Part shown: positions 18,259-42,014 of the stretch, piece by piece
Layout: each line of letters opens with the position of its first letter
Position numbering within the stretch: the first letter of the stretch is position 1
IMG/VR virus record: IMGVR_UViG_3300003543_000028
Coordinates: 1-42,622 of that record
Direction: 5' to 3' (one strand)
Source of the DNA: a virus
DNA length: 42,622 bases
Position numbers and translations under genes: made by a program
The notes under the pieces: generated by a model
What the model was told of the DNA's origin: nothing
The model's input: the letters and a program-made list of their open reading frames with translations, nothing else
The model's database searches: none

Positions 18259-18475
18259 ATTTTATAACCTTTATATTTAAATCTCGTAATAAAGTAATAC
18301 CTTTATCACATCTATACTTTGTACCATAAACTACTTTAGATACACCAGCTTGTATTAATAATTTAGCAAATCTATCAGCAATATCCATCATTAAGCTATG
18401 TTTATTTTTCACTTTGTTTCTCTTTTCTTGCTTTTCGTTTCTTTCGTAGTTTCTTTCGTAGTTTCTTACGTTCAC
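18242..18475 (-). pseudogene. Degenerate C-terminal remnant of dCMP deaminase
   Basis: The C-terminal 45 residues (AKLLIQAGVSKVVYGTKYR, then CDKGITLLRDLNIKV) match the end of the dCMP/cytidine deaminase domain, after its PCxxC helix. The H-A-E proton-donor motif is missing and where PC-x-x-C should be there is DIADRFAK, so no zinc site remains. The open frame can start at a GTG (77 residues, with an odd RNYERNYERNEKQEKRNK repeat) or at ATG 18391 (49 residues); neither gives a full enzyme. An intact deaminase would turn dCMP into dUMP, which would compete with dCMP hydroxymethylation. It is either a decayed gene or a domain reused for another purpose. Confidence 0.55.
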
Positions 18476-18485
18476 TAGCTGTCAT
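18402..18485 (-). CDS. Very basic 27-residue peptide
   Basis: A small ORF in a different frame from the deaminase remnant. Its ATG overlaps the TAG stop of thyX, with AAAGAG about 6 bases upstream, so it would be coupled to thyX translation. The product begins MTASERKKLRKKLRKK and is about half lysine and arginine, with an internal duplicated KKLRKK unit. It could bind nucleic acid, or the frame may be left over from repeat expansion. It competes with the GTG-started reading of 18242-18475, and only one of them may be used. Confidence 0.35.
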   Translation of the reverse strand: MTASERKKLRKKLRKKRKARKEKQSEK

Positions 18486-19125
18486 TTATTACTCTTTTAA
18501 ATAAAAATTGATGTTCTTCAGGTAACTTAGAATAAACTAAATTAGCAAGATTTTTAATCTCCCATAGTGCAGCTCTTGAAGTTCTTAGCATTAAGAAATT
18601 CTGTAAGCTTCTAGCATTTATACTCCATACTAGTTCAGTCTTATAAGACTCAGGTAACATATATTTAGCTTTATCATTAGCTATATTATATGTATTTAGT
18701 AAATCTCTAAGTTTATCAAGTTGACTAGCCGATGCAGCATCAATAAAATCGTTACCAGTAGTTACTATAAATTTTCTTCCATATTCAGTTATAACTTCCA
18801 TACTAATAAATCTTCCTTCTACTTCTCTAGCTTCTATAGTTATAAATGGCTCTCTACTTTCTTTAAGCTCTTTTAAGGTATATCTAGTAGATTTAACTGA
18901 AGGGCTAGCTATCCTATGTCTTGCTAATTCTTGTAATAATGCTCTACTAACTCCTTTTATTTCAAAGTTATAGTATAAATGTTCTATAGTAGAACTGTGT
19001 TTATTCTTATTAGCCACTCTTTCAATTCTATCAAAATCACACTGTTCTTTAGGCTTATCCCAACATTTGCCAATCGCTATATCAGCTATTTCTATTGGCG
19101 TATAGTTTAGTAAGTTTACTTCCAT
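18475..19125 (-). CDS. thyX: Flavin-dependent thymidylate synthase
   Basis: 216 residues. The ThyX signature RHR-x5-S-x-R is present as RHRIASPSVKSTR (69-81), preceded by HSSTIEHLYYNFEIKGVSRALLQELARH, the FAD and dUMP binding core. The C-terminal SLQNFLMLRTSRAALWEIKNL helix also matches. The enzyme makes dTMP from dUMP using FAD, NADPH and methylene-tetrahydrofolate. AAGGAG lies 7 bases before ATG and the gene overlaps the ligase stop. Because this gene alone can supply dTMP, the ThyA-family protein at 22502-23185 is free to have another function. Family assignment certain. Confidence 0.95.
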   Translation of the reverse strand: MEVNLLNYTPIEIADIAIGKCWDKPKEQCDFDRIERVANKNKHSSTIEHLYYNFEIKGVSRALLQELARHRIASPSVKSTRYTLKELKESREPFITIEAREVEGRFISMEVITEYGRKFIVTTGNDFIDAASASQLDKLRDLLNTYNIANDKAKYMLPESYKTELVWSINARSLQNFLMLRTSRAALWEIKNLANLVYSKLPEEHQFLFKRVINDS

Positions 19126-19970
19126 TAATCTATCTCCTTTTTAGTTTTATCTAATCTTATAGTTATAAATGTAGGTTGTATGTAAGTGTCAAGTATTTGC
19201 TCATACTCTATCTCTATAACATTACCTATGAAACTATTAGGTTCTACAGCTCTATCATCATCATTAAGGCCACTGCCAACTTTTACTATTCTACCTTTAG
19301 AGTCTTGTAATACTAAGCTCCCAATCATGCCTTCATATTTACCTTCCCCATCTTCAATATTTATGCACAACAAGTCAGCTGTAGGTCTCAACTTTAGCTT
19401 GATGGCAGTATTTACTCGCTTACCCAGCTCACAGATATGCGTTCTATGTTTTATATAAGAACCTTCCCAAGCGCTTTTACACTTGTCTTTAGCTATCTCT
19501 TTAGACTCACTTAAACTAATAGGCCCAGTAAACTCAGGTATAAATAGATTATCAGGCAGCTTAATAGTTTTTAATAACTTTAGTCTATCATCAAAGTCTA
19601 CATTAGCAACTATAATGTCAAATACAACAAACTTGTTGTCTAATACATTACAAGGTAATCCCTTAGCTGTTAAAGTTCTCCAAGTAGTCATTATACCACA
19701 TTTAGTTCTATCACCTAATTTACCCTCAGATAAGCCTATGAATTCAGCTTCAAGTATAAAACTCTTGTCACTGTTATTCTCAACTAAGAACTCTTCTAAG
19801 TCATTAAGCTTAATAGTTTTATTGCCACTGCTATAAACAGTCACAGTATCGCCTATTTTATGTATTTGACAATAATTACCATCATATTTAGTAGACTCAT
19901 AATAACCTGCAGGTAGCAACTTAGAAGCTGGTACTTTATCTAATGATTTACCTTTACATTGTTTTATCAT
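19125..19970 (-). CDS. ATP-dependent DNA ligase
   Basis: 281 residues. Motif I is KYDGNY with the adenylated Lys28 (K-x-D-G), motif III FVVFDII, motif IV EGSYIKHR, motif V AIKLKLRP, followed by a C-terminal OB fold (GMIGSLVLQDSKGRIVKVGSG). This is the minimal nucleotidyltransferase plus OB plan of phage ligases such as that of T7, but shorter. It seals nicks in newly made DNA, together with the polymerase and exonuclease encoded upstream. It overlaps the MazG-like gene by 17 bases and thyX at the stop. Confidence 0.88.
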   Translation of the reverse strand: MIKQCKGKSLDKVPASKLLPAGYYESTKYDGNYCQIHKIGDTVTVYSSGNKTIKLNDLEEFLVENNSDKSFILEAEFIGLSEGKLGDRTKCGIMTTWRTLTAKGLPCNVLDNKFVVFDIIVANVDFDDRLKLLKTIKLPDNLFIPEFTGPISLSESKEIAKDKCKSAWEGSYIKHRTHICELGKRVNTAIKLKLRPTADLLCINIEDGEGKYEGMIGSLVLQDSKGRIVKVGSGLNDDDRAVEPNSFIGNVIEIEYEQILDTYIQPTFITIRLDKTKKEID

Positions 19971-20325
19971 TTAAGAACCTTTCAACTATAATTGGCTCGT
20001 GTACTTCAAATAATTCTTTATAAGAAGCATCTGACTCTTTAATAAAAGTACCATTTTTATTTAAGAAACCTTTGCGGTCTTTGATATCATCATATGCAAC
20101 CTCCCAACACTCAAGTAAATCAGTGCCACTCATAGTAGCTATATTAGTTAATACTACTAAGCAGTCACCAATGTCATCTTTAATATCTTTACCCTTAGCT
20201 ACATTATCAGCTAATTCACCCATCTCACTAATTAATTTTAGCACTTGAGTTTCAACTTTACCATTATCAATGATACCTCTATCTTTAGACCACTGTAGTG
20301 TCTTTTCTTCAAGCTTATTCAGCAT
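19954..20325 (-). CDS. MazG-like dNTP pyrophosphohydrolase
   Basis: 123 residues, all helical. The metal-binding pattern of the MazG/dUTPase superfamily is visible: E34-x-x-E37 in LISEMGELADNVAKG and D51-x-x-D54 in KDDIGDCLVVLTNIA. These enzymes hydrolyse (d)NTPs to monophosphates and pyrophosphate. In a phage with a modified base such an enzyme can remove the unmodified nucleotide (T4 gp56 does this with dCTP, though it belongs to another branch). Other possibilities are ppGpp degradation or house-cleaning. It overlaps the HTH gene by 11 bases. Confidence 0.78.
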   Translation of the reverse strand: MLNKLEEKTLQWSKDRGIIDNGKVETQVLKLISEMGELADNVAKGKDIKDDIGDCLVVLTNIATMSGTDLLECWEVAYDDIKDRKGFLNKNGTFIKESDASYKELFEVHEPIIVERFLNDKTM

Positions 20326-20551
20326 CTTGTATCCTTATTTCATATTTTAAACTTTCTTCACTAAATGGGTGAAGTACAATACCCTCATTAGCGTAAACAA
20401 ATTTAGCTACATTTAATGAAGGCTTATAACTGTAGTTTTTATAACTACTTACCATAGGCACTGAAATGTTTAAGTCTTTAGCGATCTCAAAACCTTTACT
20501 ACCTTGCTCAATCTTAGATTTAACTAAGTCTTGTATAAATACAAGTTCCAT
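20315..20551 (-). CDS. Small HTH DNA-binding protein
   Basis: 78 residues with AAGGAG 5 bases before ATG. Residues 12-37 (KSKIEQGSKGFEIAKDLNIS and VPMVSSYK) read as helix-turn-helix: GFEIAKDLNISVPMVSSYK aligns with the A-x-x-L-x-x-S-x-x-x-V-S-x-Y/W form of Cro/C1-like regulators. It is the first gene after the promoter at 20575 and so leads the operon with ligase, thyX and ribonucleotide reductase. It may regulate its own promoter or the large palindrome just upstream (20625-20698). No lysogeny genes accompany it, so I do not call it a repressor. Confidence 0.6.
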   Translation of the reverse strand: MELVFIQDLVKSKIEQGSKGFEIAKDLNISVPMVSSYKNYSYKPSLNVAKFVYANEGIVLHPFSEESLKYEIRIQDAE

Positions 20552-20624: not shown

Positions 20625-20698
20625 ATTAGTCCAGAGACGTTAAAATTTTTATACGATGATTATATCGTATAAAAATTTTAGACGATTCCTGGGCTAAT
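20625..20698. other. Large palindrome between two minus-strand operons
   Basis: Core: perfect 17-base arms TAAAATTTTTATACGAT (20641-20657) and its complement (20664-20680) around GATTAT. An imperfect outer stem adds ATTAG at 20625-20629 paired with CTAAT at 20694-20698 and a CCAG/CTGG segment inside it. The 16-mer GATGATTATATCGTAT at 20655-20670 recurs at 20702-20717 over the stop codon of the carbamoyltransferase gene. It may terminate the modification operon or bind a regulator. Confidence 0.55.
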
Positions 20699-20706
20699 CC
20701 TGATGA

Positions 20707-22188
20707 TTATATCGTATTATTTTGAATAATCTTCATTCTACGAAAGTCATCTATGTTATAAATAATAGGTTGTCCGTGTGCATTTAAGCTAGTATTAATT
20801 AGTATACCATCAAAGCTATTTAATATGTGGAGTATATTAAAGTCTTGAGCTACTTGTAGTCTACCAGTATATGCACCCCTATCGCTGTCATAATGTGCTG
20901 CACCTCTGAACTCAGTAACATCTGTTTTAAAGTCATAAGCAATAATCATAAAGTATTTAGACTTGCCTACTTTCTCGACATCTATAAAGTTTTTATACAT
21001 AAAATCTTCAGTGATAACAGGTGCCATAGGCATTACAGTATCTCTACCATTTATAGCATTTATTCGTTCTACAGTCTTAAGCTTAGGTAGAGCTAAACAA
21101 GTAGTATTACACAAAGCTCTTGGGCCAAATTCCATAGAGCCTCTAAATATTTCTGTATAGCCTTTAATTTTAATCTCTCTTACAGACTTCTCTATGTTGA
21201 TATAATTATCTGTATTAACATCTCTTAATCCCCAGAGCAAATCATTATACCTAACAGGTAAGAACCCTAGTGCGCAGCCTTGGTCACCTGCTAGTGGGTT
21301 AGCTTCAAACTTATCGCTGTATCTAAGTAGTAAGTTATTTAGCTTAACATTATAGAATACACCGCCAGTAACTTTTATATTCTTGATGTTATAGCTACTA
21401 ACTATCTCTAATATAACTCGTTCTAATACTTGCTGTACAAAGTAAGCTATTATAGCTCTATTTCTCTCACCATCATCTGCTTTTGAAAATATGCTTTCCC
21501 AATATACCCAAGCTCCTTCCAACTCTCTTTCCATATTAGACTTCATAGGTATAGTCTCAGCTAAAGATTTTATACTTTTATCAGCTGTTTCTCTTATATA
21601 ATCTTTTAAAGTCTCTTTGTCAGTCTTAGTAACTTGCTGTTCATAGCCAAGTAACTTATATTCATCTTGATTTTCTTTCATACCTAAGTATCTAATGGCG
21701 TATTGATACATTAAGCCAAGTGAGTATTTGACATTATAGCTTCTATGTCTTAACACATTACCTACATATATACTTAAGCACTCGCCAAAATTACCGAAAC
21801 CATCGGCAACTATAGTTAATCCACTATCATCACCGTCTAAGAAATTCCACATAGACTTAGCGTGTAAATCGTGGTGGGTATTATTATAGTCAATGCTAGT
21901 AATCTTAGCATCAGGGAAATTAGCCTTAAGAAACCTAGGTCTATAGTATTTATTTTCAACTAAATCCAAACTCCAGAACCAGTGACTAATAAATATCTCA
22001 TCAACTTCTTTGTAAGCTTCAGGATAATATTTGAGTATCTGTTTGATACTCAAACTAGGGAATGAACTATCTGATTTAACAGTGCTTAGTCTTTCTTCTT
22101 CGTAGCCACATAATACTTTATAGGTGTTGTTATATCTACTAACTAATATAGCTGATGCATTGTGTCCTAATGTTATTAATAGCTTCAT
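20707..22188 (-). CDS. Carbamoyltransferase, NodU/TobZ family, putative DNA-base modifier
   Basis: 493 residues, both domains complete. The N-terminal Kae1/YrdC-like part has GHNAS (8-12), EEERLS (30-35), the metal-binding HHDLHA (105-110) and VADGFGNFGE (128-137). GGVFYNVKLNN and GDQGCALGF follow. The C-terminal carbamoyltransferase domain has RGSMEFGPRAL, INAINGRDTVMPMAPVITED and LINTSLNAHGQPI. The family uses carbamoyl phosphate and ATP to carbamoylate hydroxyl groups. NodU and TobZ act on sugars, and a phage member acting on 5-hydroxymethylcytosine has been reported, as I recall. Here it lies three genes downstream of a dNTP hydrolase and two downstream of a ThyA-like enzyme, overlapping its neighbour by ATGA, so a hydroxymethylated base is the likely acceptor. 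Confidence 0.85.
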   Translation of the reverse strand: MKLLITLGHNASAILVSRYNNTYKVLCGYEEERLSTVKSDSSFPSLSIKQILKYYPEAYKEVDEIFISHWFWSLDLVENKYYRPRFLKANFPDAKITSIDYNNTHHDLHAKSMWNFLDGDDSGLTIVADGFGNFGECLSIYVGNVLRHRSYNVKYSLGLMYQYAIRYLGMKENQDEYKLLGYEQQVTKTDKETLKDYIRETADKSIKSLAETIPMKSNMERELEGAWVYWESIFSKADDGERNRAIIAYFVQQVLERVILEIVSSYNIKNIKVTGGVFYNVKLNNLLLRYSDKFEANPLAGDQGCALGFLPVRYNDLLWGLRDVNTDNYINIEKSVREIKIKGYTEIFRGSMEFGPRALCNTTCLALPKLKTVERINAINGRDTVMPMAPVITEDFMYKNFIDVEKVGKSKYFMIIAYDFKTDVTEFRGAAHYDSDRGAYTGRLQVAQDFNILHILNSFDGILINTSLNAHGQPIIYNIDDFRRMKIIQNNTI

Positions 22189-22508
22189 CTATTTTCCCTT
22201 ACTAATATATCATATAATAAATCATTAGTAAAGCCTAATGATTTATAAAAATTCGTTAGACGCTTATTACATATAAGCACACATCTACCAGACAAAGACT
22301 TAAGCTTTTCAGTAGCTAAACCTTTACCTCTTCTATCTTTAAGTACATAGATAGTATCTATGTACTTAAATTCTTCGTCTCCATTAGCTATAAGTAATAA
22401 ATCGCCGTCAGTCTCTACTTTTTTAGTGCTACAGTACTTAACAAATTCATCGTAAGTATCCGGTATCCAACTGCAGTCTTTTAAACCATCATTATAAAAC
22501 TTTAGCAT
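22185..22508 (-). CDS. Minimal GNAT acetyltransferase in the modification operon
   Basis: 107 residues. The coenzyme A loop of GNAT enzymes is present as RRGKGLA (59-65) after the beta strand EFKYIDTIYVLKD, followed by an LKSL helix, a VLICN strand and FYKSLGF (motif B). The fold lacks some N-terminal elements, which is common in phage GNATs. It overlaps the carbamoyltransferase (ATGA) and the ThyA-like gene (7 bases), so the three are probably made together. It might acylate a modified nucleotide, but could equally target a host protein. The substrate is unknown. Confidence 0.68.
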   Translation of the reverse strand: MLKFYNDGLKDCSWIPDTYDEFVKYCSTKKVETDGDLLLIANGDEEFKYIDTIYVLKDRRGKGLATEKLKSLSGRCVLICNKRLTNFYKSLGFTNDLLYDILVRENR

Positions 22509-23185
22509 TCGTATATCCTTTCTAATTGCTTAAAGTGTCTCTCATATAAATGAAGACTTGCAGCATGCCAATGTATATTACCACATTCTAAATCTAACTC
22601 TTTAGCTATCATTTCAAGCATATGTCTTTGCCATTCTAAGTCTGCGCCTATTAAACCGAATCTAATATCATTACTTCTCATAGAAACTATAGCTTGTAAC
22701 TTGCCATCTCTAACTGTATAGCTAACATACATAGTACATACGTGGTCATTACCACCTATATAATGCATAAAAGGATTAGTATAATATGCGATAGCTCTTC
22801 TACTATACTTATCTCTCTTAAGCTCTTTAACTACATTTTTAAACTGATAACCATTTTGAGGACTAAACATAAGAAAACCATAATTACTATTAGTCATACC
22901 ATTTTCATCGCTCACTGTACTCCAAATCTGTGCATATTGTTTTATATACTCATTATTAGGATTTTGTGAGTTATACCACTTAGTTTCGTGTCCTATATAT
23001 GCTCCACTAGTCTTGAAAATATCTTTAATATTTATAATGCCTGTAGATGCGCCATCGAAAGTCATAGTAGCATTTATTAGTTCTATTGTTTTACTTCCTC
23101 TTACTTCAACTACATCATAGTTTTGTAGTTTATCATAAAGTTCCAATAGTGGTCCTTCATATAGTATTTTACTATTTGTGTTCAT
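22502..23185 (-). CDS. ThyA-family enzyme, putative dCMP hydroxymethylase
   Basis: 227 residues. ThyA-family landmarks in order: phosphate-binding SRRAIAYYTNP (R129, R130), catalytic Cys150 in NDHVCTMYVSYTVRDGKL, RSND (170-173), and HLY (212-214) in HWHAASLHLYERH. In true thymidylate synthases Asn (E. coli N177) reads the uracil. In this protein an Asp (D182 of LIGADLEW), shifted by a one-residue insertion, occupies that region; T4 dCMP hydroxymethylase also has Asp there. Together with the separate thyX gene and the carbamoyltransferase downstream, this favours transfer of a hydroxymethyl group to dCMP. A dUMP hydroxymethylase or an unusual ThyA remains possible. Length is slightly below E. 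coli ThyA (264). Confidence 0.78.
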   Translation of the reverse strand: MNTNSKILYEGPLLELYDKLQNYDVVEVRGSKTIELINATMTFDGASTGIINIKDIFKTSGAYIGHETKWYNSQNPNNEYIKQYAQIWSTVSDENGMTNSNYGFLMFSPQNGYQFKNVVKELKRDKYSRRAIAYYTNPFMHYIGGNDHVCTMYVSYTVRDGKLQAIVSMRSNDIRFGLIGADLEWQRHMLEMIAKELDLECGNIHWHAASLHLYERHFKQLERIYEC

Positions 23186-23498
23186 CGTTTAATCCTTTAT
23201 ATTTATTAGTTAAATGTTGTAAAAACATCAAATTACAAGCCGCGTGACTCAAGTGACTTAGACCTGTCTCAAGGTCAGTGTCTTCGCCAGCTTGAAACGC
23301 TTCTATGTGTCTGTATAGAGCATCCCAGTATAAGTGTAGCTGATCTTTATTGCACTTAGCCCAGTTATCTCTACCATACTTACTAGCGCCAAAAGCTAAC
23401 ACTTTAGCCATCTCTGTTTTAAACTCAGGTAATATAGCTCCTGATATAGGCTTGTTAACGCTCATAGACTCTTTAATAAATGCTTTATCACTATTCAT
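23172..23498 (-). CDS. dATP/dGTP diphosphohydrolase-like protein (DUF5664)
   Basis: 108 residues, AAAGGAG 6 bases before ATG. The pattern FGASKYGRDNW (36-46), YWDALYRHIEAFQAGEDTD and ETGLSHLSHAACNLMFL is that of the N-terminal dATP/dGTP diphosphohydrolase (DUF5664) family, an all-helical relative of MazG; the MazZ enzyme of Z-genome phages belongs to this group. Histidines and acidic residues in RHIE, GEDTD, ETG and HLSHA would hold the metals. In this operon, beside the ThyA-like enzyme, it may deplete a normal dNTP (dCTP would make most sense) or balance pools; its specificity cannot be read from sequence. It overlaps both neighbours. Confidence 0.75.
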   Translation of the reverse strand: MNSDKAFIKESMSVNKPISGAILPEFKTEMAKVLAFGASKYGRDNWAKCNKDQLHLYWDALYRHIEAFQAGEDTDLETGLSHLSHAACNLMFLQHLTNKYKGLNDEHK

Positions 23499-24420
23499 TA
23501 TCTTCTCCTTTAATCTGTTCAGGGTGCCATAGAACTATTTCTAGCTTGCCATCAATCTCTTTAAGTAAGTGCATATTAACTAGGTTAATAGTTACAAGAG
23601 CATCTATAGATGACATACCTTTACTTTCCCAAGCTCTAACAGTCCCATCCCACATCTCTTGCTCAGTCATATCTTCATTGACAAATTTCAGCGCTTTCTT
23701 AGGTCCTATACCTTTACAGCCTTTAATATTATCTGTAGTATCGCCTAATATAGTTTGCAAATAAGGCCATAACTTAGCTGTAGCTGCAGATGTTTCAATC
23801 CACTTCATCTGTTTATTCCACTGTAAGCTCTCATAGTAGTTAAAGTGTCTTCCAGGGACTGAGTTATAAACATCTTTGTCTATAGCACACATTATATATT
23901 TCTTTGGCTCTTGCATCTTTTTATACACAACTATATCGTCAGCTTCCCACTTAGTACATATACCACCACTATAGTTTTCAAGTAAAGCAGCTTTAACTTC
24001 TTTTAGACCTGCTGGAGCTCTATTATTAACTCTATTAGCTTTATAGTCTTCTTTGACTTTGTATCTAAAGTTATCTCTACCACTTGTGAACCACAACTCA
24101 CAAGTTAAACAACCTGTTTTATCTTTAATTCTCTGCAATTTCTCTTCAGCTTTAGCTACTGCTAAATTAATATCAGTATAATAAGTAACCATACTTTCTT
24201 CATCAAAATTAGGGTCATTTATAATCTCTTGCCACTCACTCTCAGAGTGGTATTCTCTTGGCAGTATCTCAATCTCTTCCTCAGTATTAAGACAAGCTAT
24301 AAATGCAACTGTATCAGCATCTATAAGAGCTATTTTGTCATTTTTAGAAGGCATAACCTCACCATCTATATCTATATCTATATCTACTATTTCGTCTGTT
24401 CCATCAATCCCATCTAACAT
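23491..24420 (-). CDS. 5'-3' exonuclease (T7 gp6 / flap nuclease type)
   Basis: 309 residues. Start ATG 24420 is chosen because GGAGGAAG lies 6 bases upstream and the ATG touches the polymerase stop. An odd N-terminal tail encoded by a TATAGA microsatellite gives IDIDIDID (13-20) before the nuclease core. Core motifs: ALIDADTVAF, YKVKEDYKANR, KWEADDIVVYKK, IMCAIDKDVY, LGDTTDNIKGCKGIGPKKA with the helix-hairpin-helix. All acidic metal ligands appear to be in place. T7 gp6-like nucleases remove RNA primers and degrade host DNA to feed phage nucleotide pools. Family confident. Confidence 0.88.
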   Translation of the reverse strand: MLDGIDGTDEIVDIDIDIDGEVMPSKNDKIALIDADTVAFIACLNTEEEIEILPREYHSESEWQEIINDPNFDEESMVTYYTDINLAVAKAEEKLQRIKDKTGCLTCELWFTSGRDNFRYKVKEDYKANRVNNRAPAGLKEVKAALLENYSGGICTKWEADDIVVYKKMQEPKKYIMCAIDKDVYNSVPGRHFNYYESLQWNKQMKWIETSAATAKLWPYLQTILGDTTDNIKGCKGIGPKKALKFVNEDMTEQEMWDGTVRAWESKGMSSIDALVTINLVNMHLLKEIDGKLEIVLWHPEQIKGEDNE

Positions 24421-26066
24421 TATACTTCCTCCACTTCTGCAATCATTGGTATATCTTTAAAGAAGAACGCTTTAGTCTTACTTATTTCTTCCCAGCCTTT
24501 AATCATACTAGTCTCTAACATTTTAGTCCAGTACTCTAAATCTTCCCTTGGTATTTCTAAATAAATAGCATCGTGTACTACATTTATAATATACTTAAGA
24601 CACTCACTATTAGTTTCTTTAACCATATAGTGCACAGCTAATTTAGTTGTCTCAGCACCACTGCCTTGAACAGGCCCGTTAATACCATCAGTCCCGAGTC
24701 TAGGCTTAGTTCTTCTGCCTAAAGCTGTAGTATATATATAGCCACCCTCTTTAACGCCATCCCATACTTTCTTATGGTACTTAGCTATATTAGGGTACTT
24801 CTTGAAATACTTATTTCTAATATTTCTAGCTTCTTCTTGAGTCATAGTAACGCCAAAGTTTACAAATGCATATTCTTGGAACGCAGGAGCACTCATACCA
24901 AATACAAAGCCAAAGTTAATAGCTTTAGCTTTAACTCTCTCTTCTTTAGTTACTTCATCTTTACCAGATATAAACTTAGCCATTGAAGTATGTAAGTCTT
25001 CGCCATCTTTAAGTTGTTTATACATAGCTGGTTCATTAAATAATGCACAAGCTAGTCTTAATTCTAAAGTAGAATAATCTGCCTCTATAACTATCTTGTC
25101 AGAGTCAGTAGACTTAAACATATACTGTAAGTCTCTCGGTATTTGCTGAGCATTTATGCCTCTATTCATATCACCGCCAGTTGCTGTAAATCTACCTGTT
25201 GCTGCGCCAGCTACATTATATCTTGTAAATACTCTTGGGTAGTTATATGAATTTAGCATAGTCTTTTTCTTTAATAGTCTTCTTTGTTCAAATATAACCT
25301 TAGCTAATTGATTACCCTCACTTATTAATTTAATAAGTGTATTTTTATCAGTTTTATCAACTCCTAAAGCTTCTTTACATTGTTTAGGTGAGTTTGGATT
25401 AAGTCCATTAAGATATCTATAGTTCTCTTCAATCTTATCAACCATAGCATCTAGCTCTTTTCTAACTGACATCTGGTCTATAGGTATCCCATTTTGTTGA
25501 TATTGTATAGCATACTTCATAGATAACATATCTACTTTGTAGGCTAGTACTTCTCTACCGTTTTGTATATTTTTATTTTGCCAAATAAGCCATAAAGCAT
25601 ATACGTCTGTTGCAGAGTATCTCAACTGTTTACCTGATAAATAAGCGCCTTTAATAAATCCTTGTTTTTGTAAATCTTTTTTGTCTAAGTCTTCATATAA
25701 CTTGTCCCAGCCAAACTTAGATACTACAACATCTAAGCTGAATTGCTGCCACTCAGGATAAGCTGATTTAACTAAATAAAAACAGTCATCAAACTTATCT
25801 GTCGTCATGTTTAATGTACCGAAGTCATATGAGCAGTTATACCATATAGTCCATAAAGGTTTAATAAAGTTCTTAGCTTCATCTAAGTCTATCTCATCTG
25901 TATCTATAATATATATTATGTCTGAGGTGTCTGGTTGAAATAGCTGTATAAGTCTTGTATTAGTGTAAAGACCGTCAGTTTCAATATCAGCAAAAGTGGG
26001 TAAGTCATCTCTTAAGTGTATTTCATCAAGTGAGTCAATAACTTTATATTTAATTTCGTGTTCCAT
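24420..26066 (-). CDS. Family A DNA polymerase with 3'-5' exonuclease
   Basis: 548 residues, compact for this family (T7 gp5 has 704). The exonuclease has Exo I ADIETDG (D27, E29), Exo II YNCSYDFGTL (N77, D81) and Exo III LRYSATD. The polymerase has motif A IVIEADYSTLELR (about 321-333), motif B RVKAKAINFGFVFG (about 372-385; Phe at the site of E. coli F762, and Phe where E. coli has Y766) and motif C VVHDAIYLE (about 495). It would replicate the genome together with the SF3-like ATPase and SSB encoded upstream. A possible promoter and a terminator-like hairpin separate it from the SSB gene. Certain assignment. Confidence 0.95.
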   Translation of the reverse strand: MEHEIKYKVIDSLDEIHLRDDLPTFADIETDGLYTNTRLIQLFQPDTSDIIYIIDTDEIDLDEAKNFIKPLWTIWYNCSYDFGTLNMTTDKFDDCFYLVKSAYPEWQQFSLDVVVSKFGWDKLYEDLDKKDLQKQGFIKGAYLSGKQLRYSATDVYALWLIWQNKNIQNGREVLAYKVDMLSMKYAIQYQQNGIPIDQMSVRKELDAMVDKIEENYRYLNGLNPNSPKQCKEALGVDKTDKNTLIKLISEGNQLAKVIFEQRRLLKKKTMLNSYNYPRVFTRYNVAGAATGRFTATGGDMNRGINAQQIPRDLQYMFKSTDSDKIVIEADYSTLELRLACALFNEPAMYKQLKDGEDLHTSMAKFISGKDEVTKEERVKAKAINFGFVFGMSAPAFQEYAFVNFGVTMTQEEARNIRNKYFKKYPNIAKYHKKVWDGVKEGGYIYTTALGRRTKPRLGTDGINGPVQGSGAETTKLAVHYMVKETNSECLKYIINVVHDAIYLEIPREDLEYWTKMLETSMIKGWEEISKTKAFFFKDIPMIAEVEEV

Positions 26067-26908: not shown

Positions 26909-27403
26909 TTACTTAGCTTCAGTTGGCTCGTCTTTAGAAGGAAGAACATCTGTAACAGAACTAAAATCAGGTTTTTCAAGTTTAGCTTTTTCAAGTTTAG
27001 CTTTACCTTGTTCAGGTGTCATAACGCCATCAAGCACATCAGTCATGATTGCTTTTTCTGTTGCAGCAAGTTGTTTGTTATGAGCTTTTTTGATTGACTC
27101 ACCTTGCTTAGAAACTCTTTTAAGACCATTTATACCTTTACCATTTTTCTCAGCATAGAAGAACTCTTCAGTTGCAGGTAAGAATTTACTAGATACAGAA
27201 CAAAGAATATGCGTAATATTACCATCAGCATCTTTCTTAGTAACTTCATCAATGTTAACTGTTGCTCCACCAGCTTTTGGCGCTAAGTTATCTTCAAGAA
27301 TTGCACTTAACGCAGCTCTAAACTTATTTGCTACTTTGTGTTCATCACATAACGCAATTACAGCTGACACTGTACCTTCAAATATCTCTTTTTTCGTTGC
27401 CAT
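26909..27403 (-). CDS. Early protein of unknown function, paralogue 1
   Basis: 164 residues, AAAGGA 7 bases before ATG. No known family recognised. It shares with the product of 33255-33743 a segment F-x-x-x-L-x-x-x-L-E-x-NLAPK-x-GG (here FRAALSAILEDNLAPKAGG), then D-G-N-I, a Cys, a Pro and an NGK-x-KG-like stretch, followed by a long helix and an acidic K-rich end. The two are probably paralogues. It has its own promoter (27520) and a downstream hairpin, which suggests high expression. Possible roles are nucleic-acid or host-protein binding; there is no direct evidence. Confidence 0.7.
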   Translation of the reverse strand: MATKKEIFEGTVSAVIALCDEHKVANKFRAALSAILEDNLAPKAGGATVNIDEVTKKDADGNITHILCSVSSKFLPATEEFFYAEKNGKGINGLKRVSKQGESIKKAHNKQLAATEKAIMTDVLDGVMTPEQGKAKLEKAKLEKPDFSSVTDVLPSKDEPTEAK

Positions 27404-33254: not shown

Positions 33255-33743
33255 TTAGTTATTGAAGTCTACCCAGTCTTGCTCAATATCATAGTATTCA
33301 GATTTTAAACAGCTAGCTTTAAGTCCCACAACCTCTTTAGATTTAGCTTGAGCTTCGTCAAAGTTACCTTCAGCCATTGCTTCAACTGCTTCAGCCTCAA
33401 GAGATTTAATGACTCTTCGCGCTTTATTCCACTTAGCTATCGCAGCTTTACAGTATCCTTTAGATTTACCGTTAGATATAACCATTTTATCAGCTGGATA
33501 ATATAGTTGATGATATCTACAGTAAGCTTCCTTTATCGTCCCATCCTCATTTAAAATAGCTGGATAAGCGCTCGAACCACCACCTGATTTAGGGGCTAAA
33601 TTAGTCTCTAATAGAGTCAATAGCTCTTCGCTAAACTTTTTAGATACTTTACTATTTGTTAAAAGTTCGCTAACTTCACTACTAATTTTATCCCATAGCT
33701 TAGTTTTACTAAGTCTTACTACTTTGTTTTCGCTTGTTTTCAT
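33255..33743 (-). CDS. First early protein, paralogue 2, possible zinc-binding
   Basis: 162 residues, AAAGGA 9 bases before ATG; the first gene of the minus arm, downstream of two promoters. FSEELLTLLETNLAPKSGG (about 38-56) is shared with the product of 26909-27403. After it, C-x-x-H (AYCRYHQLYYPADK) and a later Cys (GKSKGYCK) could form a small zinc site, which paralogue 1 lacks. The rest is helical and charged. As the first and probably strongest early gene it may act on the host, but no known family is seen. Confidence 0.7.
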   Translation of the reverse strand: MKTSENKVVRLSKTKLWDKISSEVSELLTNSKVSKKFSEELLTLLETNLAPKSGGGSSAYPAILNEDGTIKEAYCRYHQLYYPADKMVISNGKSKGYCKAAIAKWNKARRVIKSLEAEAVEAMAEGNFDEAQAKSKEVVGLKASCLKSEYYDIEQDWVDFNN

Positions 33744-41978: not shown

Positions 41979-42014
41979 AAACGAACAGAGATACTTAAGT
42001 ATCTCTGTTCGTTT
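41979..42014 (+). terminator. Perfect 36-base palindrome before the last fibre gene
   Basis: Two 18-base arms, AAACGAACAGAGATACTT and its exact complement, without a spacer. The RNA would fold into a long hairpin ending in GUUU, directly followed by the ribosome site (AAGGAG) of the gene at 42026. It can end or process the upstream message. Confidence 0.65.

Follow-up and report, generated by a model that had tools for sequence, protein, structure and literature searches.

A putative cytosine-hypermodification cassette in a podovirus genome, coupling predicted dCMP hydroxymethylase and 5-hydroxymethylcytosine carbamoyltransferase genes

The virus record IMGVR_UViG_3300003543_000028 of IMG/VR (42,622 bp, GC content 33.8%; the whole stretch was analysed and is called the window below) carries on its minus strand a set of overlapping genes that very likely constitutes a cytosine-hypermodification cassette giving 5-carbamoyloxymethylcytosine, with a small GNAT gene as an optional accessory. 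The chemistry is already known from a 2021 report; the novelty lies in how the cassette is built: it has no recognisable nucleotide kinase, includes a PF18909 protein, couples the hydroxymethylase gene directly to the carbamoyltransferase gene and optionally contains the GNAT gene. A first-pass annotation made from the sequence alone had described four overlapping minus-strand genes at this locus and proposed hydroxymethylation of deoxycytidine monophosphate (dCMP) followed by carbamoylation. All four open reading frames (ORFs) were found present, intact and overlapping in the order it gave, their families were confirmed by profile matches (PF18909, Thymidylat_synt, PF00583, Carbam_trans_C/N), and signature residues, a validated homologue, a phylogenetic tree and gene linkage support the two-step chemistry. 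In order of transcription the genes are:

23172..23498, minus strand: predicted PF18909 (d)NTP diphosphohydrolase (PF18909, E 5e-26, 90.9 bits against a cut-off of 27)
22502..23185, minus strand: predicted dCMP hydroxymethylase of the T4 gp42 type, ThyA family, 227 residues (Thymidylat_synt, E 3e-21)
22185..22508, minus strand: small GNAT-fold acetyltransferase, 107 residues (PF00583, 23.2 bits, cut-off 20.7)
20707..22188, minus strand: predicted 5-hydroxymethylcytosine carbamoyltransferase of the NodU/TobZ family, 493 residues (PF02543, E 4e-18; PF16861, E 1e-19)

Results

The carbamoyltransferase groups with a validated 5-hydroxymethylcytosine enzyme

Both NodU/TobZ-family domains of the carbamoyltransferase are intact within a single ORF. 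Residues H105, H106, H109, D129 and D302 were invariant in 15 relatives, and active-site-type residues (HxxxH, Asp) also aligned in NovN/GdmN. The first-pass annotation had mentioned a reported carbamoyltransferase acting on 5-hydroxymethylcytosine (5hmC) in phage DNA. In the work of Yang et al., an expressed enzyme turned 5hmC in DNA and 5hmdCTP into 5-carbamoyloxymethylcytosine, as determined by liquid chromatography–mass spectrometry (Yang et al., 2021; eLife 10:e70021, PMC8670742). The window protein is 37% identical to this validated enzyme over its length (535 columns, E 1e-86) and has the blocks MEFGPRALCNTT and INGRDTVMP in common with it. For the family, MetaGPA proposed TobZ W408, G421 and R423 as specificity residues.

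To place the enzyme, a tree of 97 rows was used (66 phage-clade, 30 cellular and 1 cyanophage). A branch with maximal support (SH-aLRT, the Shimodaira–Hasegawa-like approximate likelihood ratio test, 100) separated the 66 phage rows, including both the window and the validated enzymes, from the 30 cellular rows and the cyanophage enzyme. The window protein therefore does not fall in a sugar-specific clade without phage members, a placement that would have spoken against the first-pass reading. In the phage clade, linkage was counted at loci flanked by 3.5 kb or more on each side, near-identical phages being kept as separate loci. The co-occurrence that the annotation had suggested surveying was found in 53 of 55 phage-clade loci, where a hydroxymethylase homologue lay near the carbamoyltransferase gene, versus 0 of 77 cellular loci (Fisher p 5e-28, which overstates independence because the near-identical phages were not collapsed). 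The ThyA homologue linked to the window carbamoyltransferase itself carries Asp177. Since the window enzyme lies in the phage clade together with the validated enzyme and shares this linkage, the DNA-modification reading is favoured, and on sequence grounds we assign the enzyme to the 5hmC type. At the level of the whole family the annotation is NodU/TobZ/GdmN, and the cyanophage member has no linked hydroxymethylase, as might be expected if the enzyme acted on a sugar or small molecule of the nodulation-factor or antibiotic kind, unrelated to DNA. The tree and the linkage, however, set the window enzyme apart with full support and put the validated 5hmC enzyme in its clade; a sugar-type carbamoyltransferase was rejected on these two grounds and is the least credible of the explanations considered.

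The ThyA homologue has the residues of a dCMP hydroxymethylase

The hydroxymethylase signature consists of T4 Asp145, three residues before the catalytic Cys, together with Ser94 and Tyr96; the position of Asp145 is Leu in thymidylate synthases, T4 D145N is inactive, and Asp179 is the residue for cytosine (PMC6400193). The best PDB match of the window ThyA homologue was T4 gp42 (E 1e-29), versus about 1e-11 for E. coli thymidylate synthase. Its D147, C150, T151 and D182 correspond to T4 D145, C148, T149 and D179, so that both the diagnostic Asp ahead of the catalytic Cys (D147-H-V-C150) and the Asp179 equivalent are in place; the Ser-x-Tyr pair is present as S100-N-Y102, and Glu is kept at E. 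coli position 58 (Glu60 of the hydroxymethylase set). Every ThyA homologue linked to a carbamoyltransferase had the catalytic Cys as well as Asp at both T4 positions, D145 and D179. The window also encodes a complete ThyX that the first-pass annotation did not mention:

18475..19125, minus strand: ThyX flavin-dependent thymidylate synthase, complete, dTMP supply (PF02511, E 6e-38; motif RHRIASPSVKSTR)

Because ThyX is present, the ThyA homologue would be freed from dTMP synthesis. Both an ordinary thymidylate synthase and a dCMP methylase were ruled out as its identity by the Asp residues at the two T4 positions and by ThyX, and the protein is predicted to be a dCMP hydroxymethylase. In the Bacteroides-type carbamoyltransferase phages (L021, L023–L026, L028, L031, L033 and L041) a ThyA homologue, often in a second copy, keeps Cys146, Thr147 and Asp177 and has lost the catalytic Glu58 (Met/Leu/Ile) and Trp80 (Tyr).

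The window lineage has no recognisable nucleotide kinase

The first-pass annotation had noted that no kinase for hydroxymethyl-dCMP was seen. This gap proved to be real and lineage-specific. A P-loop kinase of one of two families was found near the carbamoyltransferase gene in 51 of the 55 well-flanked clade loci; the other four were L157 and three members (L002, L003 and L139) of the window subclade of the tree, which has five podovirus members: the window, L002, L003, L059 and L139. In the window the Walker A motif GxxxxGK[ST] occurred in helicases only. No member of either kinase family was detected by profile in genomes G000, G001, G002 and G007, and the combined Walker A and profile search of these four yielded helicases, primase-type ATPases and a RecA-like ATPase, and nothing else; absence was judged by homology and motif, which a new fold could escape. 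Both families were likewise not found in Kafunavirus-type relatives.

Two points weigh against the cassette reading. The first is that a recognisable nucleotide kinase is found neither in the window nor in its siblings L002 and L139, whose contigs appear complete because they carry direct terminal repeats (127 bp and 99 bp; none were found in the window). The second is that the carbamoyltransferase has 493 residues versus 554 in the validated enzyme, part of the interdomain linker and the C-terminal tail being gone. For want of a phage kinase leading to the triphosphate, the pathway might end at 5-hydroxymethyl-dCMP or be non-functional, and the kinase in 51 of 55 comparable loci against none in the window subclade would fit such a stalled pathway. 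However, divergent genomes retain an intact cassette (their hydroxymethylases being 54–80% identical), and we consider a stalled pathway very improbable. The kinase-less state spans the subclade, so the phosphorylation step is presumably supplied otherwise. T4 supplies its own monophosphate kinase for the 5-hydroxymethyl-dCMP step (PMC6400193), which implies that here either a host kinase tolerates the modified nucleotide or the phage has an enzyme that escaped recognition.

The PF18909 protein probably acts on dCTP

Among the carbamoyltransferase contigs surveyed, PF18909 was found only in the window, L002 and L003, the L059 contig ending before the expected position of the gene. The same domain is fused to a dCMP deaminase in PH1 gp08 (L050, 6361–7110) and KF-1 gp27 (L051, 17611–18219), and this fusion suggests a dC-nucleotide substrate. 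The protein probably converts dCTP to dCMP, the role of gp56 in T4.

The GNAT gene is coupled to the cassette and optional

The 107-residue protein belongs to the GNAT superfamily by profile match, coenzyme A (CoA) motif (RRGKGLA) and fold, and has a conserved N-terminal FYxDGLKDCSW. Its PF00583 match is barely above the cut-off and weaker than the other family assignments; a PDB fold search with its model (mean predicted local distance difference test score, pLDDT, 66) returned GNATs as top matches (E 5e-4). The gene lies between those for the hydroxymethylase and the carbamoyltransferase in the window, L002 and L003, three of the subclade's five members. Outside the window, orthologues were detected in L002 (56% identical) and L003 (49%) alone, at the corresponding place, and no GNAT was present at the locus in the other carbamoyltransferase phages tested. 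Five of 50 carbamoyltransferase contigs had any PF00583 match, that of L003 being the sole one at the cassette, and the L002 protein was detected by a specific profile only. Relatives amounted to one weak match (E 0.6) in GenBank phages and none in plasmids, and no additional cassette emerged when viral contigs were scanned with profiles of the GNAT and of the hydroxymethylase.

In L059 and L139 there is no GNAT gene and the hydroxymethylase and carbamoyltransferase genes overlap directly. Since both key genes occur there without it, the GNAT would be unneeded for carbamoylation, and we rejected it as an essential pathway step. Either an ancestral gene was therefore lost on two occasions, or the gene was acquired repeatedly. 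The first-pass annotation had presented it as a new coupled element; it is indeed a genuine, conserved and coupled gene, but an optional one, missing from L059 and L139, and not a key step. The coding sequence also holds a perfect 15-bp hairpin (22338–22370, 3-nt loop, z –4.6) and a 12-bp hairpin (22217–22246). The 15-bp hairpin was rejected as a conserved regulatory element, as it is not kept in L002 or L003.

One explanation of the GNAT is that it adds a second group to the base, for example by N4-acetylation or by acylation of the carbamate, giving an acylated 5-carbamoyloxymethylcytosine. The GNAT-domain enzymes TmcA and NAT10 acetylate cytosine N4 in RNA, which counts for this explanation, as do the intact CoA motif and the translational coupling of the gene, in three divergent genomes, to the key genes on either side. 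Against it, two of the five subclade members lack the gene in otherwise similar cassettes, it is confined to the window, L002 and L003 among the loci tested, the base does not offer the reactive aliphatic amine usual for GNATs, and no nucleic-acid-binding extension is evident within 107 residues. An acylated base of this kind is therefore improbable; the further acylated derivative suggested by the first-pass annotation found no support beyond gene position. Slightly less probable again is a doubly decorated, undescribed base, in which the GNAT would acylate 5-carbamoyloxymethylcytosine (for example at N4) or the nucleotide and a phage kinase of known type would be bypassed.

Alternatively, the GNAT could acetylate a protein of the host and so serve in counter-defence or host takeover, much as the compact GNAT anti-CRISPR AcrVA5 targets a host defence protein; its place in the operon would then serve timing. 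The compact fold, the presence of AcrVA5 among the PDB fold matches (template modelling score 0.46–0.52) and the patchy occurrence typical of accessory genes are consistent with this, although the likeness to AcrVA5 is a generic fold match from a model of the modest mean pLDDT given above. We regard this specific role as a real possibility that falls somewhat short of an even chance. Most likely the GNAT acetylates a protein or a small molecule, and a counter-defence or other accessory role is favoured over base acylation.

Proposed pathway

In the pathway that we infer, the PF18909 protein would probably remove dCTP and yield dCMP, which the ThyA relative would convert with methylene-tetrahydrofolate to 5-hydroxymethyl-dCMP. 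A host kinase or an unrecognised phage enzyme, followed by host NDP kinase, would raise this to the triphosphate, and the phage polymerase, which would have to accept modified dCTP, would insert it. Before or after incorporation, the carbamoyltransferase with ATP and carbamoyl phosphate would cap the hydroxymethyl group to give 5-carbamoyloxymethylcytosine, a base expected to protect against restriction and other defences that read cytosine. Independently, ThyX would make dTMP.

Operon layout and genome type

The operon proved longer than the first-pass annotation had noted, as two upstream genes also overlap head to tail. These and other features around the cassette are:

24420..26066, minus strand: Family A DNA polymerase (PF00476, E 6e-50), upstream end of the overlapping gene run
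23491..24420, minus strand: 5'-3' exonuclease (phrog_107, E 5e-44), 8-bp overlap with the PF18909 gene
20641..20680, no strand: 17-bp A/T-rich hairpin directly downstream of the carbamoyltransferase gene, the longest perfect short-loop inverted repeat in the window
19954..20325, minus strand: MazG-like pyrophosphatase (phrog_1992, E 3e-37), also adjoining the cassette in L002 and L059
15552..18258, minus strand: ribonucleotide reductase small and large subunits, dNDP supply (PF00268, PF02867)

The minus-strand run reads DNA polymerase, exonuclease, PF18909 protein, ThyA homologue, GNAT, carbamoyltransferase. Within the cassette the PF18909 and ThyA-homologue genes overlap by 14 bp, the ThyA-homologue and GNAT genes by 7 bp and the GNAT and carbamoyltransferase genes by 4 bp (ATGA). 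The same order and coupling recur in the apparently complete sibling genome L002 (G001) and in L003 (G002), which argues that the arrangement is not due to chance. The hairpin at 20641–20680, a possible operon end, separates the carbamoyltransferase gene from a 78-residue ORF (20315–20551); it is this ORF that comes first in the next operon, and the MazG-like gene, to which the first-pass annotation had given that place, comes second.

Virion genes place the phage among podoviruses related to Kafunavirus-type phages. The capsid protein is 44–49% identical to the capsids of PH1, KF-1, VPMS1 and Amaethon, and the portal, terminase and internal virion proteins match these phages likewise. The 4-kb contig L059 comes from the bin of an Epsilonproteobacteria genome; its carbamoyltransferase is 59% identical to that of the window and its gene order is the same (hydroxymethylase, carbamoyltransferase, 80-residue ORF, MazG-like, ligase). 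The bin gives a faint hint of an Epsilonproteobacteria host.

Elsewhere in the window, a 537-residue RCC1-repeat protein (64–1677) lies beside the virion genes and had no match in sibling genomes G001, G002 and G007. Two related proteins (26909–27403 and 33255–33743; phrog_10459) have homologues across this podovirus group, and a perfect 16-bp hairpin (41979–42014) directly after the last tail-fibre gene may be a terminator.

Discussion

5-Carbamoyloxymethylcytosine was demonstrated in vitro with one metagenomic-contig enzyme, and its presence in phage was predicted (PMC8670742). We found no further report of the carbamoyl base after 2021 in the open-access literature searched. The carbamoyltransferase clade includes the isolated phages Xp15, Effie, HHU4 and Bacteroides BF503P1, whose virion DNA is directly assayable. 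Given T4's own kinase and those at 51 of 55 loci, the question is raised how the window branch copes without a recognisable one.

Comparison with known systems

Like the 2021 5hmC system (PMC8670742), the window has a homologous carbamoyltransferase of the same clade, a linked ThyA-family hydroxymethylase and an NTP pyrophosphatase nearby. Unlike that system, it has no linked kinase, PF18909 replaces the PF01503 pyrophosphatase reported there, the hydroxymethylase gene adjoins the carbamoyltransferase gene on its upstream side and is coupled to it, a GNAT is optional, and the enzyme is shorter. T4 (gp56 dCTPase, gp42 hydroxymethylase, gp1 kinase and glucosyltransferases) resembles the window in combining a pyrophosphatase, a gp42-type hydroxymethylase and a decorating transferase; the window differs in its predicted carbamoyl cap versus glucose, in having no recognisable kinase and in PF18909 versus gp56.

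Among sequenced phages in GenBank, Xanthomonas phage Xp15, the Acinetobacter phages Effie, MD-2021a and HHU4, and Bacteroides phages such as BF503P1 have a carbamoyltransferase of the same clade, with a hydroxymethylase where examined. In those of these phages that were examined, a P-loop kinase is present and neither a GNAT nor a PF18909 gene is found at the locus.

KF-1, PH1, VPMS1 and Amaethon are like the window in their virion genes, their size of about 42 kb and a ThyA homologue beside the DNA polymerase, and KF-1 and PH1 also carry the PF18909 domain; no carbamoyltransferase or GNAT was found in KF-1 or PH1. Unlike the window protein, the Kafunavirus-type ThyA carries the N177D change with Leu143 and His147 retained, and looks like a dCMP methylase. 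N177D in an otherwise thymidylate synthase-like active site (Leu143, His147) is seen in PH1 gp10 (L050, 7654–8472), KF-1 gp25 (L051, 16265–17062), L052 (8459–9301) and the homologues of Kolga, Amaethon and VPMS1 (L172–L174). The N177D homologues are predicted dCMP methylases, and Kafunavirus-type phages and the SAR11 phage Kolga may contain 5-methylcytosine. As these neighbouring phages are predicted to make 5-methyl-dCMP, phages sharing a single type of virion seem to have exchanged one cytosine modification for another.

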